Below are positions 5,474 to 33,038 of a stretch of 64,000 nucleotides of DNA, one piece after another. Positions within the stretch are counted from its first letter, which is position 1; every line of letters starts with the position of its first letter. The stretch spans positions 1 to 64,000 of the forward strand of contig SZXZ01000011.1 of assembly GCA_005843835.1 (NCBI GenBank), read 5' to 3'. This DNA comes from Chlorobium sp. (GTDB taxonomy: Bacteria > Bacteroidota > Chlorobiia > Chlorobiales > Chlorobiaceae). A program made the position numbers and the translations under genes. The notes beneath the pieces are model-generated. The model was not told where the DNA came from. It saw nothing but the letters and a program-made list of their open reading frames with translations, and made no database searches.

Positions 5474-6700
5474 ATGCGTATTTTAACGTTCACAGGTAAA
5501 GGCGGGGTAGGCAAGACCAGTGTTTCAGCAGCTACAGCTGTTAGGTTATCACAGATTGGTTATCGTACTCTTGTCCTCTCAACTGATCCCGCTCACAGTC
5601 TCTCGGATTCATTTAACTTGTCTCTCGGTGCAGAACCAACAAAGATCAGGGAAAATCTTCATGCAATTGAGGTAAATCCTTATGTAGACCTTAAACAGAA
5701 TTGGCAGTCCGTACAGAAGTACTACACAAGAATTTTCATGGCTCAGGGTGTTTCAGGGGTAATGGCCGACGAAATGACCATTCTTCCGGGTATGGAAGAG
5801 CTTTTTTCTCTGCTGAGAATAAAACGCTATAAAGCCTCTGGACTTTACGATGTTCTGGTTCTCGATACAGCGCCGACCGGAGAAACATTGAGGCTTCTTT
5901 CGCTTCCTGATACCCTGGCATGGGGCATGAAAGCGGTGAAAAATGTCAATAAATATCTTATCAAGCCACTCAGCAAGCCTCTTTCCAGGATGTCTGATAA
6001 AATAGCGTTTTTTATTCCTCCTGCAGACGCTATTGAATCAGTCGACCAGGTTTTTGACGAGCTTGAAGACATCCGTGAAATTCTGACAGACAATAAAAAA
6101 TCCACGGTTCGGCTGGTTATGAATGCCGAAAAGATGTCGATCAAGGAGACCATGCGCGCATTGACCTACCTGAACCTCTACGGGTTCAAGGTGGATATGG
6201 TGCTTGTCAACAAATTGCTCGATACCAACGAGGACAGCGGGTATCTTGAGAATTGGAAAGCTATTCAGCAGAAGTATCTTGGTGAAATAGAAGAAGGCTT
6301 TTCTCCGCTTCCTGTCAAAAAGCTCAGGATGTACGAGCAGGAAATTGTTGGTCTCAAATCGCTTGAGATGTTTGCTAAAGATATGTATGGTGATACCGAT
6401 CCATCAGATATGATGTATGACGAACCACCGATCAAGTTTGTCCGCAACGGCAATGTCTATGAGGTTCAGTTGAAGCTGATGTTTGCCAACCCCGTTGATA
6501 TCGATGTCTGGGTGACCGGTGATGAGCTCTATGTACAAATCGGAAATCAGCGCAAAATTATCACCCTTCCAATCAGCCTGACAGGTCTTGAGCCTGGTGA
6601 TGCGGTCTTTAAGGATAAATGGCTTCATATACCTTTTGACCTTGACCGTCACGATCACACCCAGCTGCACAAAGAGCAAAAGGCCTATGATAGAGGATGA
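5474..6700 (+). CDS. ArsA/Get3-family ATPase with C-terminal HSP20/alpha-crystallin-like domain
   Basis: [11 protein letters not shown] deviant Walker A, STDPAHSLSDSF switch I; C-terminal beta-rich domain; no cysteines in the ORF. Confidence 0.9.
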   Translation: MRILTFTGKGGVGKTSVSAATAVRLSQIGYRTLVLSTDPAHSLSDSFNLSLGAEPTKIRENLHAIEVNPYVDLKQNWQSVQKYYTRIFMAQGVSGVMADEMTILPGMEELFSLLRIKRYKASGLYDVLVLDTAPTGETLRLLSLPDTLAWGMKAVKNVNKYLIKPLSKPLSRMSDKIAFFIPPADAIESVDQVFDELEDIREILTDNKKSTVRLVMNAEKMSIKETMRALTYLNLYGFKVDMVLVNKLLDTNEDSGYLENWKAIQQKYLGEIEEGFSPLPVKKLRMYEQEIVGLKSLEMFAKDMYGDTDPSDMMYDEPPIKFVRNGNVYEVQLKLMFANPVDIDVWVTGDELYVQIGNQRKIITLPISLTGLEPGDAVFKDKWLHIPFDLDRHDHTQLHKEQKAYDRG

Positions 6701-6814
6701 TTTATCCTGTGGAAGAGTATTTGTTTAGATTGATTTTTATGTTTAAATTTTCGTCATATAATCTCGTTAGTTCATCATCATAACAGAGGCATTTTCAAGA
6801 AACGCCTCAATTCC

Positions 6815-7246
6815 ATGGAGAGCAATATGTCGGAATCGTATCAGAAACTTCGCAAGGATTTTAAAGAGCTGGATTTTACAGATCGCCTAACTTTTCTCGC
6901 TGAAAGCGTGCTTTTAACCGGACAGAGTGCTGTCGTCGGAAGTCTGAATATTGCCGGCAATATTTTTGATACAGTAACCGGTACAGTTGGAGCTGTTATT
7001 GATGCTTCAGGAATAGGAAATCTGCTTGGTAATACAGGCGGGGTAGTGGGTGAAACCATTGACCGTGTTGCAATTACCGTGAAAGACGCATCAAGAACAG
7101 CTAACGAGCTTTATGCAAGTGCTGTTGAAACAGTTGAAAATGCTACCGGAAATGCCGCAACAGCTGTTGGCGATGCAGGTGTATCAGCATCTGAAGTTGT
7201 AAAAAATTTTACCGGATCTTTTCAAAAAGGCCCGATAAGAAAATAG
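6815..7246 (+). CDS. csmC: chlorosome envelope protein C
   Basis: [27 protein letters not shown]..., Gly/Ala/Val-rich helices; directly upstream of csmA. Confidence 0.88.
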
Positions 7247-7402
7247 AAGAATTAGCTTCCTTGAGAGAAATTTGCTCTGTAAAGGGATGAAAATCTTTTT
7301 CTTGTGTTTTTTTGTTTATTACTGTAAATTAAAAACAGAATCCTGTTTTAAACATTCTGAATTCTGAAAGCTTTTCAATTAATTAAATTTCAAGGAGGAA
7401 TT

Positions 7403-7645
7403 ATGAGTGGTGGTGGCGTTTTTACCGATATCCTGGCAGCAGCAGGACGCATTTTTGAAGTGATGGTTGAGGGACATTGGGAAACTGTAGGTATGTTGTT
7501 TGATTCTTTAGGCAAAGGCACAATGAGAATCAATCGCAATGCTTATGGTAGCATGGGCGGAGGCACAAGCCTTCGCGGTTCTTCACCTGAAGCCACAGGC
7601 TATGCTGTTCCTTCAAAAGAAGTAGCATCAAAGTTTGCTAAGTAA
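7403..7645 (+). CDS. csmA: chlorosome baseplate bacteriochlorophyll a-binding protein precursor
   Basis: [51 protein letters not shown] matches CsmA; strong RBS aaggaggaatt. Confidence 0.97.
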
Positions 7646-7668
7646 TGTAATTCGGTATGTCCGTTTTC

Positions 7669-7706
7669 AGGCAGTGAAAAGTATTTGGTTTCACTGCCTT
7701 TTTTTA
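7669..7706 (+). terminator. Rho-independent terminator downstream of csmA
   Basis: aggcagtgaaa-loop-tttcactgcct followed by T-run. Confidence 0.88.
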
Positions 7707-7923
7707 TTGTCGTATTGTTGGCCCATCTCGCAACATAACCTGCCCTTGTTTCTTTAATCAGCAGATGCAGGCAGTTACTTCTTATCCTCTATTCTTTGCA
7801 GAAATTTTCTTTAACTGTTTAATGTTTACCGAATGCATATCGGTTCATTGAGTTATTTCTGTTTATTGTAAAAAATTTGATAAATTTCAGTTCAGGGCGC
7901 CAATAAGTATTAAGAGAGCAGGT

Positions 7924-9570
7924 ATGGTTAATTTATCGTTGTATATCTCAGGTCAGGCTGATCAGAATGATGTAACTGAGTTCTTTCAGAAAAGTCTCAT
8001 GAACCCCGGTGAAAATCCGATTGCTTTTTTTGAAGGGGTTTTTTATGAGTCACATCAGGAACGTGTCGGTAATATCGCGTTTCAGGATTATTTGATCTAT
8101 TCAGACAAGGCAGTTTACTTTTGGGCAAGGGGTTCGAGTAAAGATTATCTCGACAGATTTGATCTTGGCGCTGTTTCTGTGAACAGCAGGAACAAAAATC
8201 AAGATTTCGCGACTCTTAATTTTAAGGTGCGTCGCGACCAGAAAGATCCTGTGTATGTAATATTTGATATGGTTGAACTGCACGAAGCTGAGTTAATAAC
8301 CCGGCTTCACACAGTCATAGAATCAATTATTGAGGACGCCCTAGGGGTTAACTACAGCAAAGAATTGCCCGTCGAAGTCTCCAATGCAGTTCTTCGAGGA
8401 GCACGTGGTATATGTATTCCGCAGATTATTCCTCTTCGATTTGATACACCAGACATAGCCCAGCAAGAGAGCCACATTGGCTATGGCCAGGATCTGCTGG
8501 AGCAATACAAGGCAAATATCGGTTATTCCAGCCCCGAAATGCAGCAGCCATTCAATGGACAACCTGCAGGTGCGGCACAAGGCGGAGAGAAACACACAGG
8601 CGGGTTTTCTCCTGCTGATGCTTTAAAGGGTATTGAAAATATGCTTCCCAAGGATCCTGCTTCATTAAAAAGAGTAGCCGATTCTATCAAGGAGATGCTT
8701 GGTGATGCCCCGCTAAGGTTTCGTGATCAGGTTAAGAACGACCTGCAACATGTTCCTGGCATGCTTTCTGCGCTCAATGAGCTGTTAACCAATATAGCCG
8801 ATAATCCGCAGGCAGAGCGCTTTGTAATGAACATCGTTAAAACTGCCGTGCGCAATGACGGTATGATTGGATCTGTTGGCAAGCTTATTAAACTTTCTTC
8901 AAATTTTGGAAGCTCAGGAAGCGGCTCAGGAAGGCGATCGTCACAGCGAAATGCCAGTAAATCCGATACTTCAGGATCCAATGAAAATACGTCGAAAAGT
9001 CCAAGACGCGGTGTTGATGACGACGATGAAACTCCTGTAAGAAGAAGAAATATTCACATCAAAAGCGATGATGAAGCTACGCTGAATGAAGATTGTTTTG
9101 GTAATGATACAGCCTCAAACGAAAAACATGCTGTTTCATCGGCATCAATCCCAAATACAAAGACCGCTGATGACTTCGATGGTGATACTGTACCGCAACG
9201 AAAAAAGATTACGATCAAATCCCCTGACGAAGACGTTCTTCCTATTGTCAAAAACATGATGAGTACGGACGATTTTTCATCCGATGACCAATTTTCAGAT
9301 AAAGGGAATCAGGCTGATAGTGTTGAAAAAGTCGAAGAGATAACTCCTTCAAGAAAAAAAATTCGAATAATACCGGCTGAAGCTGAAGATGAAATTCATC
9401 CGGGAGAAAAGGTTTTTTCGGCACCTCAGTCAGAAAAGAGCTTTTCTGAAATAGATCCCATGCCACACCCTATGAATAATGCTGTTGATAACTCAACTGA
9501 AACCAAAACTGCGGATAACAGCAGATTGACTGGTGGTGAAAACGATAACGAAGGGCAAACACATCGGTAA
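7924..9570 (+). CDS. hypothetical protein: PH-like N-terminal domain, low-complexity C-terminus with three R-K-x-I-x-I repeats
   Basis: 548 aa ORF in the chlorosome cluster; repeats RRRNIHIKSDDE / QRKKITIKSPDED / SRKKIRIIPAEAEDE. Confidence 0.85.
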   Translation: MVNLSLYISGQADQNDVTEFFQKSLMNPGENPIAFFEGVFYESHQERVGNIAFQDYLIYSDKAVYFWARGSSKDYLDRFDLGAVSVNSRNKNQDFATLNFKVRRDQKDPVYVIFDMVELHEAELITRLHTVIESIIEDALGVNYSKELPVEVSNAVLRGARGICIPQIIPLRFDTPDIAQQESHIGYGQDLLEQYKANIGYSSPEMQQPFNGQPAGAAQGGEKHTGGFSPADALKGIENMLPKDPASLKRVADSIKEMLGDAPLRFRDQVKNDLQHVPGMLSALNELLTNIADNPQAERFVMNIVKTAVRNDGMIGSVGKLIKLSSNFGSSGSGSGRRSSQRNASKSDTSGSNENTSKSPRRGVDDDDETPVRRRNIHIKSDDEATLNEDCFGNDTASNEKHAVSSASIPNTKTADDFDGDTVPQRKKITIKSPDEDVLPIVKNMMSTDDFSSDDQFSDKGNQADSVEKVEEITPSRKKIRIIPAEAEDEIHPGEKVFSAPQSEKSFSEIDPMPHPMNNAVDNSTETKTADNSRLTGGENDNEGQTHR

Positions 9571-9616
9571 TTAGCGTCATTCAAAATCAAGTCCACTCAA
9601 TAGTTTTATTATCAAC

Positions 9617-10771
9617 ATGAGAATTATTCTTTACTTGGGTAAAGGAGGGGTAGGAAAAACTACCGTGTCAGCTGCCACAGCAACTGCAATAGCCCGACGA
9701 GGGCAGCGGGTTTTGATCATGAGTACCGATGTTGCTCATAGTCTTGCAGATGCTTTGGGTGTTGAACTCTCTTCTACGCCTGTAGAAGTCGATAAAAATC
9801 TCTTTGCCATGGAGGTTAACGTTCTTTCCGAAATCAGGGAGAACTGGAGCGAGCTTTACTCCTATTTCTCTTCTATTTTAATGCATGACGGGGCTAATGA
9901 AGTTGTCGCGGAAGAACTTGCGATTATGCCCGGTATGGAAGAAATGATTAGTCTGCGTTATATATGGAAAGCTGCAAAATCGGGTAATTATGATGTTGTT
10001 GTTGTTGATGCTGCTCCAACGGGAGAAACCATGCGCTTGCTGGGAATGCCCGAATCATATGGATGGTATGCCGATAAAATAGGAGGCTGGCACTCAAAAG
10101 CGATTGGCTTTGCAGCTCCTCTTTTGAGCAAGTTTATGCCGAAAAAAAATATCTTCAAGCTTATGCCTGAGGTCAATTCGCACATGAAAGAGCTTCATGC
10201 CATGCTTCAGGATAAATCAATTACGACCTTCAGGGTTGTACTGAATCCTGAAAATATGGTTATCAAGGAAGCTTTGCGGGTTCAAACCTACCTCAACCTG
10301 TTCGGTTATAAACTTGATGCCGCAGTAGTTAACAAAATTCTTCCTCAGAGTTCTACCGATAACTATTTACAGAGCCTTATAGATCTTCAGACCAAATATC
10401 TAAGAGTTATAGATAACTGCTTTTATCCGGTGCCTATTTTCAAGGCTAAACAGTCGATTGCTGAAATTATAAATACAGATCGGCTCTATGAATTAAGTCA
10501 GCAGATTTTTGGCACTCAGGATCCTGCCGCAGTGCTTTACAGCGATGAAAAGACCCAGTTGCTCGAGAAAATCAATGGTAAATATGTGCTGAGTCTTTAT
10601 CTGCCTAACGTTGAAGTGACAAAACTTAATGTAAATATCAAGGGTGATGAGCTTCTTGTGGATATCAACAACTTCCGTAAAAGCATAATTCTTCCCAATG
10701 TTCTTGTCGGCAGAAAAACTGAAGGAGCTGACTTTATAGAAGGCAACCTTAATATTACTTTTGCCAACTAA
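9617..10771 (+). CDS. second ArsA/Get3-family ATPase with C-terminal HSP20-like domain
   Basis: [35 protein letters not shown]; paralogue of 5474..6700. Confidence 0.9.
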
Positions 10772-10819
10772 AAGAGCATGAATCAGTTTTACTGATTCGC
10801 CCCGATTATAATCCGATTA

Positions 10820-10863
10820 AAAAAGGGCAGATTACTGTAAAAGGTAATCAGTCCTTTTTTTTA
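10820..10863. terminator. Rho-independent terminator at convergent gene ends
   Basis: gattac...gtaatc stem with a T-run on + strand; overlaps the last codons of folK. Confidence 0.7.
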
Positions 10864-32783: not shown

Positions 32784-33038
32784 TTAATCCTTGAAACGTT
32801 TTTCGATGTCTTTACCTGGCTTGGCATAACCGGAAACCTTAGGTGAAGAACCTCTTAAGCCCGATAATGAACTTCCGCCATACAGAAAAGGATAGGCATT
32901 AACAAGAAGGCGTTTCGTTGTTTTTCCAATGTTCTCAAGAGAGTCGCCTACAACCCACCAGTGACCGTCAATAAAAACTTCAACAAATCTCCCGTAAGCC
33001 TCTCCCCAGTTGGTAAAAACACCTGATATATTGCTCAT
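32784..33038 (-). CDS. csmE: chlorosome envelope protein E
   Basis: CsmA-like small protein GVFTNWGEAYGRFVEVFIDGHWWVVGDSLENIGKTTKRLLVNAYPFLYGGSS. Confidence 0.88.
   Translation of the reverse strand: MSNISGVFTNWGEAYGRFVEVFIDGHWWVVGDSLENIGKTTKRLLVNAYPFLYGGSSLSGLRGSSPKVSGYAKPGKDIEKRFKD

Follow-up and report, generated by a model that had tools for sequence, protein, structure and literature searches.

A conserved locus around csmA joins a Get3d-type ATPase and a PH-like protein in two phyla of chlorosome bacteria: a candidate chlorosome-biogenesis module

The csmA locus of a Chlorobium sp. was analysed in a stretch of 64,000 nucleotides (contig SZXZ01000011.1, positions 1 to 64,000), referred to below as the window. 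Five open reading frames (ORFs) on the + strand at 5474-10771 encode ArsA1, CsmC, CsmA, a PH-like protein of 548 amino acids (aa), named P548, and ArsA2. This order, strand and position had been proposed in an original prediction made from the letters alone, and were confirmed by the ORFs and by Pfam. The features of the locus are as follows.

5474..6700, + strand: ArsA1, 408 aa (PF02374, E 5e-117; PF17886 ArsA_HSP20, E 7e-20)
6815..7246, + strand: csmC, chlorosome envelope protein C (PF11098, 1.5e-62)
7403..7645, + strand: csmA, chlorosome baseplate protein precursor, 80 aa (PF02043, 8e-34), the conserved anchor of the module
7583..7642, + strand: CsmA tail (C-terminal 20 aa) with the motif K-x-[IV]-x-x-[RK]-F
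7669..7705, + strand: intrinsic terminator-like hairpin and U-run after csmA (-15.5 kcal/mol, z -4.56)
7924..9570, + strand: P548, PH-like protein, 548 aa, with an N-terminal PH-like domain, a helical middle and a disordered tail
7924..8343, + strand: PH-like domain of P548 (about residues 1-140; pLDDT mostly above 90)
9030..9375, + strand: three basic-flanked I-x-I motifs in the P548 tail (RRNIHI, RKKITI, RKKIRI), candidate alpha-crystallin ligands
9617..10771, + strand: ArsA2, second Get3d-type ATPase (PF02374, 1e-81; PF17886, 2e-18)
10819..10860, no strand assigned: terminator-like hairpin and U-run closing the module after ArsA2 (-18.5 kcal/mol, z -6.27)

The genes probably form two transcription units, ArsA1/csmC/csmA and P548/ArsA2, since hairpins with U-runs follow csmA and ArsA2. 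Mono- and dicistronic mRNAs have been reported for csm genes, and csmA is essential whereas csmC is not (PMC12214013, quoting Chung et al. 1998). Besides one two-domain ArsA, the source genome encodes eight homologues with a single domain. With so many homologues, the adjacency of ArsA and csmA in a single genome is not decisive; its conservation across genomes is.

Both ATPases were confirmed to have one deviant Walker A motif (GKGGVGKT) and an HSP20-like C-terminal domain, with no cysteine in ArsA1, one in ArsA2 and no CxxC in either. ArsA1 also carries switch I (DPAHSL) and switch II (DTAPTGETLRLL). Its AlphaFold model (pLDDT 84) gave full-length fold matches to NosGet3d (8egk/3igf) and AtGet3d (8elf), over about 390-417 columns. 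The architecture of ArsA1 and ArsA2 is that of Get3d, i.e. an ArsA/Get3 ATPase with an HSP20-like tail and without CxxC. The TIGR04291 score of the window ATPase was far under the cut-off (118.7 vs 650). The nucleotide-binding motifs were invariant in ArsA1, and its ATPase activity is predicted only. Between families of Chlorobiia, ArsA1 was 61-69% identical and ArsA2 similarly so; the figures were about 50% for CsmA and about 40% for CsmC.

Conservation of the locus was analysed in two sets. The first comprised csmA regions from 20 Chlorobiia genomes of three families, chosen from csmA matches near an ArsA, and the order ArsA1-csmC-csmA-P548-ArsA2 was found in 20/20 genomes of this biased sample. 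In family f3 and in genome G001 of family f2, the five genes were kept, and those that flank them in Chlorobium, such as kbl, holA, ssb and folK, had mostly gone. For the second set (L059-L138), GTDB genomes were scanned by CsmA alignment alone, which yielded 28 Chloroflexota loci and 52 mostly Chlorobi loci. The first row of the alignment was the CsmA of C. aurantiacus, which was found 100% identical in Chloroflexus contigs. Only loci with enough flank were counted, and about ten Chlorobiia assemblies were counted twice. At 101/101 testable loci (71/71 Chlorobiia, 28/28 Chloroflexales, 2/2 Chloroheliales-like) the gene immediately upstream of csm(C)A was that of ArsA1, and at 96/96 (68/68, 26/26 and 2/2, respectively) csmA was immediately followed by a P548 homologue. 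A further ArsA was found downstream at 65/65 Chlorobiia and 25/25 Chloroflexales loci, and at 0/2 Chloroheliales-like loci.

ArsA1 of Chloroflexota was 48-50% identical to that of the window. The Chloroflexales order was ArsA1-csmA-P548a-P548b-ArsA(GKGGTGKT)-ArsA, the last of these ArsA having lost its P-loop in 24/24 loci; this pseudo-ATPase (L062:14129-15244:+ and 23 other loci) has lost Walker A and kept the HSP20 domain. The Chloroheliales-like loci (G069, G078) read ArsA1-csmA-P548a-P548b. Neighbours outside the module were not kept in the distant lineages (f3, G001, Chloroflexota), and close kinship was rejected as the sole source of the synteny because the flanks differ there. The proposed conservation of the ATPases beside csmCA in other chlorosome bacteria therefore held for ArsA1. 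It did not hold for ArsA2, which was found at the csmA locus only in Chlorobiia; other ArsA paralogues occupy its place in Chloroflexales and none does in the Chloroheliales-like loci, so that ArsA2 was rejected as a generally obligate partner. Likewise, csmC was present at Chlorobiia csmA loci and absent from those of Chloroflexota. CsmC was thus rejected as the general client, and the conserved partner is CsmA. Two single cases were also seen: an f3 genome in which an additional csmC-like gene separates csmC from csmA (L039:8103-8420:-), and a Chlorobium-like ArsA1-csmC-csmA on a contig filed as Latescibacterota (L118), probably a binning error.

The distribution of the families was then compared with that of csmA, which occurred in 20/81 Chloroflexia genomes. 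An ArsA1-grade protein was encoded at csmA in 20/20 of these (609-725 bits), vs at most 425 bits in the 61 csmA-less genomes; over 301 Chloroflexota genomes, the best ArsA1 score outside csmA genomes was 450 bits. Among 248 genomes of the Bacteroidota phylum, full-length ArsA1 was present in all Chlorobiia except G005 and G047, and the best match in the 186 non-Chlorobiia genomes was at about E 1e-112. G005 is no true exception: its csmA lies near a contig start and the 3' end of ArsA1 is still visible (L160). In G047 a csmE-type gene alone was found, the csmCA region being missing from the assembly. The P548 family was found in 20/20 csmA-bearing vs 0/61 csmA-less Chloroflexia, in 59/62 Chlorobiia vs 0/186 other Bacteroidota-phylum genomes, and in 19/301 Chloroflexota genomes. 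A plasmid search with ArsA1 returned distant matches only, and none from Chloracidobacterium, a member of a third chlorosome phylum. The expected loss of the ATPase in non-chlorosome relatives was borne out for ArsA1, since ArsA1-grade proteins were absent from the csmA-less relatives scanned. In the genomes sampled, ArsA1-grade proteins and the P548 family are confined to csmA-bearing lineages, and the trio ArsA1, CsmA and P548 is kept adjacent in two phyla.

P548 matched no Pfam family at cut-off. PF14470 (bPH_3) gave no match for the window protein and weak ones, short of the curated cut-off, in 3/10 Chloroflexota homologues (best E 0.016). A profile of the Chlorobi proteins found those of Chloroflexota (E 5e-23 to 9e-7 among locus ORFs; hhalign 99.7%). 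Residues 1-170 have a confident fold in the AlphaFold model (pLDDT mostly above 90), and the best PDB matches in Foldseek were PH/GRAM-like domains (E 9e-4 to 5e-3); the N-terminus is accordingly modelled as a PH-like fold, with a beta-barrel and a C-terminal helix. The original prediction had treated this protein as a bystander. It is a new chlorosome-linked family, tied to csmA as tightly as ArsA1. Its tails are of low complexity and contain basic-flanked [IVL]-x-[IVL] motifs, far more often than shuffled tails do: 213 vs 12 in Chlorobiaceae, 12 vs 0.9 in f2/f3 (10/10 proteins), 80 vs 5.8 in Chloroflexales b and 19 vs 1.7 in Chloroflexales a. The alpha-crystallin groove classically binds motifs of this type, and those of P548 may therefore dock on the ATPases.

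In 103/103 CsmA sequences the C-terminus had the motif K-x-[IV]-x-x-[RK]-F, with two to four residues after it. A stricter pattern, with a basic residue required after F, matched 86/103, the other 17 ending in FAE. The stretch preceding the motif aligns poorly between phyla. CsmA is amphipathic, and its C-terminal region is cleaved off when the protein matures, both in C. tepidum and in most homologues (PMC4992139). The tail is polar/basic, not the single C-terminal transmembrane helix of a tail-anchored client. The 20-aa tail corresponds to the stretch removed in C. tepidum. In Chlorobiia a fuller tail, RGSSP...GYA.P.K.[IV]..[RK]F, was found on CsmA, CsmE and proteins of about 100 aa. In the latter the N-terminus is Nif11-like and unrelated, with Nif11 matches below the Pfam cut-off, and they are encoded beside csmE/csmB paralogues. 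Only three proteins of the source genome bear the tail: CsmA, CsmE and one Nif11-like protein. The tail-bearing genes outside the module are as follows.

32784..33038 of the window, - strand: csmE-type CsmA paralogue with the same C-terminal tail (PF02043, 8.5e-39; tail match E 1e-15)
L162:5046-5381, L163:9522-9821 and L164:9422-9745, - strand: Nif11-like proteins sharing the tail alone with CsmA/CsmE
L167:3217-3525:- (G000:C132), L168:7239-7532:+ and L172:8199-8501:-: further Nif11-like proteins of this kind

Because this C-terminal piece is conserved, cleaved and shuffled between proteins, it looks like a sorting or processing signal, and its distribution suggests that the signal is portable. 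CsmA, though not a tail-anchored protein, may behave as a client with a C-terminal signal.

An ArsA tree was built after removal of long-branch gas-vesicle and pseudo-ATPase sequences, which had caused artefacts in a first tree; it contained no cyanobacterial sequences. ArsA1 of both phyla and Chlorobi-only paralogues formed one clade of chlorosome bacteria (support 100/99). ArsA2 fell in a separate clade with proteins from csmA-less Chloroflexia genomes. Given this, and its presence at the locus in Chlorobiia only, the ArsA1/ArsA2 heterodimer suggested originally was not retained as a general feature.

Other ArsA genes were seen near csm genes or organelle-like structures. A second ArsA1 copy (88-92% identical) adjoins genes for a B12-radical SAM protein and an O-methyltransferase. 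At L142:9184-10407:- (G000:C85) the second copy is 88% identical and also stands by a csmB-like gene, an arrangement which recurs in several Chlorobium genomes; at L162-L164 it lies among csmB and csmE-like genes. In a gas-vesicle cluster (L147:3415-4888:+, G000:C64), a tailless ArsA ATPase stands directly behind a separate HSP20/GvpH protein, i.e. a split Get3d architecture beside another organelle-like structure. At L148:5945-11189 (G012), csmE, a csmC-like gene and another ArsA occur within about 5 kb on opposite strands. Such csmE-linked ArsA genes (G012 and others, about 3-4 kb off on the other strand) were left out of the counts because the source genome has that ArsA on another contig (L143), without csmE.

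The locus was read as a dedicated chlorosome-biogenesis module for the targeting or assembly of CsmA, with a probability of about 0.58. The constant position of csmA between a Get3d ATPase and P548, neither of which was found in the csmA-less relatives scanned, points to a dedicated assembly pathway for chlorosomes, undescribed in the papers searched. The proposal that Get3d-type ATPases are tied to Csm proteins stands as a linkage to csmA, not as a general service to CsmC; a chaperone function of ArsA1 on Csm proteins is what we infer from the genes. ArsA1 would act as a Get3-like, ATP-driven dimer: it would keep hold of the amphipathic CsmA after its synthesis and let go of it at the cytoplasmic membrane or the nascent chlorosome. 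The conserved, cleavable tail of CsmA would be the recognition and processing signal. P548 would be a membrane-side or scaffold partner, docked through its basic [IVL]-x-[IVL] motifs to the alpha-crystallin domain of the ATPases. The lineage-specific paralogues, ArsA2 in Chlorobiia and the GKGGTGKT ATPase and Walker-A-less pseudo-ATPase in Chloroflexales, could be accessory or regulatory subunits.

A more specific version is tentative and was judged less likely than not. It supposes a protein-targeting pathway dedicated to a bacterial organelle. A Get3d ATPase would recognise a C-terminal signal that is both cleavable and portable, borne by CsmA in Chloroflexota and by CsmA, CsmE and Nif11-like proteins in Chlorobiia, and would pass it to the chlorosome by way of a PH-like adaptor. 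The [IVL]-x-[IVL] repeats of this adaptor would bind the alpha-crystallin domain of the ATPase. Such a pathway would be as old as the chlorosome and shared between the phyla.

Several points weigh against a CsmA-dedicated module. Its function was deduced from sequence and predicted structure. The csmA-bearing lineages amount to about three independent clades, so the counts are not independent events, and the csmA block may have been transferred between phyla. Monophyly of ArsA1 across phyla was supported at 66/37 only. CsmA is small and amphipathic and is no classical tail-anchored client. The [IVL]-x-[IVL] pattern was defined post hoc, after inspecting the sequences, and is weak in Chloroheliales (3 observed vs 2.2 shuffled). 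Lastly, the same cells hold Get3d paralogues unlinked to csm genes, for which reason a general Get3d role is possible.

Four other explanations were weighed. ArsA1 and P548 could serve to transport or arrange bacteriochlorophyll, quinone or lipid at the part of the membrane where the chlorosome grows, csmA being adjacent for co-regulation. The PH-like domain, which suggests lipid or protein binding at a membrane, is consistent with this, as are the B12-radical SAM enzyme, O-methyltransferase and csmB paralogues near the second ArsA1 copy. We know of no Get3 with pigment or lipid carriage as its main task, however, and a CsmA tail that is conserved and then cleaved off suggests recognition of a protein. 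Get3d has been shown to bind proteins and has a chamber for protein clients (PMC10248533). This explanation was judged unlikely. It is also unlikely that the ATPases are general Get3d membrane-protein chaperones, left beside csmA by one ancestral block that was kept by chance or co-expression. Each genome does hold several more Get3d/ArsA paralogues, mostly away from csm genes, and csmA-bearing lineages are few. Yet ArsA1, csmA and P548 stay together at every testable locus while other neighbours shuffle, a gap in ArsA1 score separates genomes with and without csmA, and the PH-like family occurs nowhere else among the genomes sampled. A role in chlorosome positioning or segregation, by analogy with ParA/McdAB, would fit a deviant Walker A ATPase that adjoins an organelle structural gene and a partner with a repetitive, disordered tail. 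It was considered improbable: ArsA1 is by family a Get3/ArsA protein (PF02374, 5e-117, vs 1e-8 or worse for ParA-type families) and has an HSP20 tail, the window ATPase scored far below the cut-off of the MinD/ParA models, and chlorosomes are membrane-attached and numerous. Arsenite efflux, the usual annotation of such genes in keeping with the family name (a passage in PMC11269200, citing Eisen 2002, gives six 'ArsA' in C. tepidum), was rejected as scarcely credible on the cysteines (0 and 1), the single NTPase domain with its HSP20 tail and the neighbours, no arsenic genes being found near the module.

How chlorosomes, which are light-harvesting organelles, are built is an open question, with rival budding and aggregation models, and CsmA has been described as the sole chlorosome protein recognisably common to the chlorosome phyla (PMC9316378; PMC10972752). 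The analysis sets beside it two families, one of Get3d ATPases and one of PH-like proteins, which track csmA in both phyla studied. It also adds the motif common to the C-terminus of all CsmA sequences analysed, in the stretch lost from the mature protein. ArsA1, P548 and the CsmA tail are concrete genes and residues to mutate. If the module acts as proposed, it would provide a candidate natural client and partner for the poorly understood Get3d family, which was carried into plant chloroplasts. In the full text of open-licence papers, none was found joining Get3 with chlorosomes, or csmA with csmC and ArsA, and the neighbours in the module were not named under the locus tags tried; other papers may already have mentioned them.

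Green bacteria were already known to have Get3d: members from green sulfur and nonsulfur bacteria were placed near Get3d by Barlow et al. 2023, with conserved switch regions and Walker A lysine, and five copies were noted in one Chlorobium (PMC10248533). NosGet3d and AtGet3d bind tail-anchored clients and hydrolyse ATP; their natural role was left open, as was what the alpha-crystallin domain does (PMC10248533). The window ATPases were compared with these and other known systems. With the ArsA arsenite pump they share the PF02374 family; the pump has two NTPase halves and metal-site cysteines, whereas the window ATPases lack both, carry an HSP20 tail and have no arsB/arsD nearby. P548 shares its fold with bPH_3 (PF14470) and PH/GRAM-like domains but differs in its strict linkage to csmA and its disordered tail with basic [IVL]-x-[IVL] motifs. 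The csmCA operon of Chlorobiaceae has the same two genes in the same order; here it lies within a larger conserved locus with ATPases and P548, of which the Chloroflexota version lacks csmC. Get3/TRC40 (yeast Get3, archaeal TRC40 3zq6) shares the ATPase fold, the catalytic motifs and a C-terminal signal on the proposed client, but the client proposed here is amphipathic, belongs to a monolayer and loses its tail by cleavage. In Get3d structures, unlike Get3/TRC40, the alpha-crystallin tail fills the Get4 site. The closest likeness is to Get3d itself (NosGet3d All4481, 8egk/3igf; AtGet3d At1g26090, 8elf), with which the window ATPases share a single NTPase domain, a C-terminal alpha-crystallin domain and the lack of CxxC. 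Get3d was published with no mention of chlorosomes (PMC10248533), whereas here it stands in one block with csmA and P548, with multiple specialised paralogues per genome.

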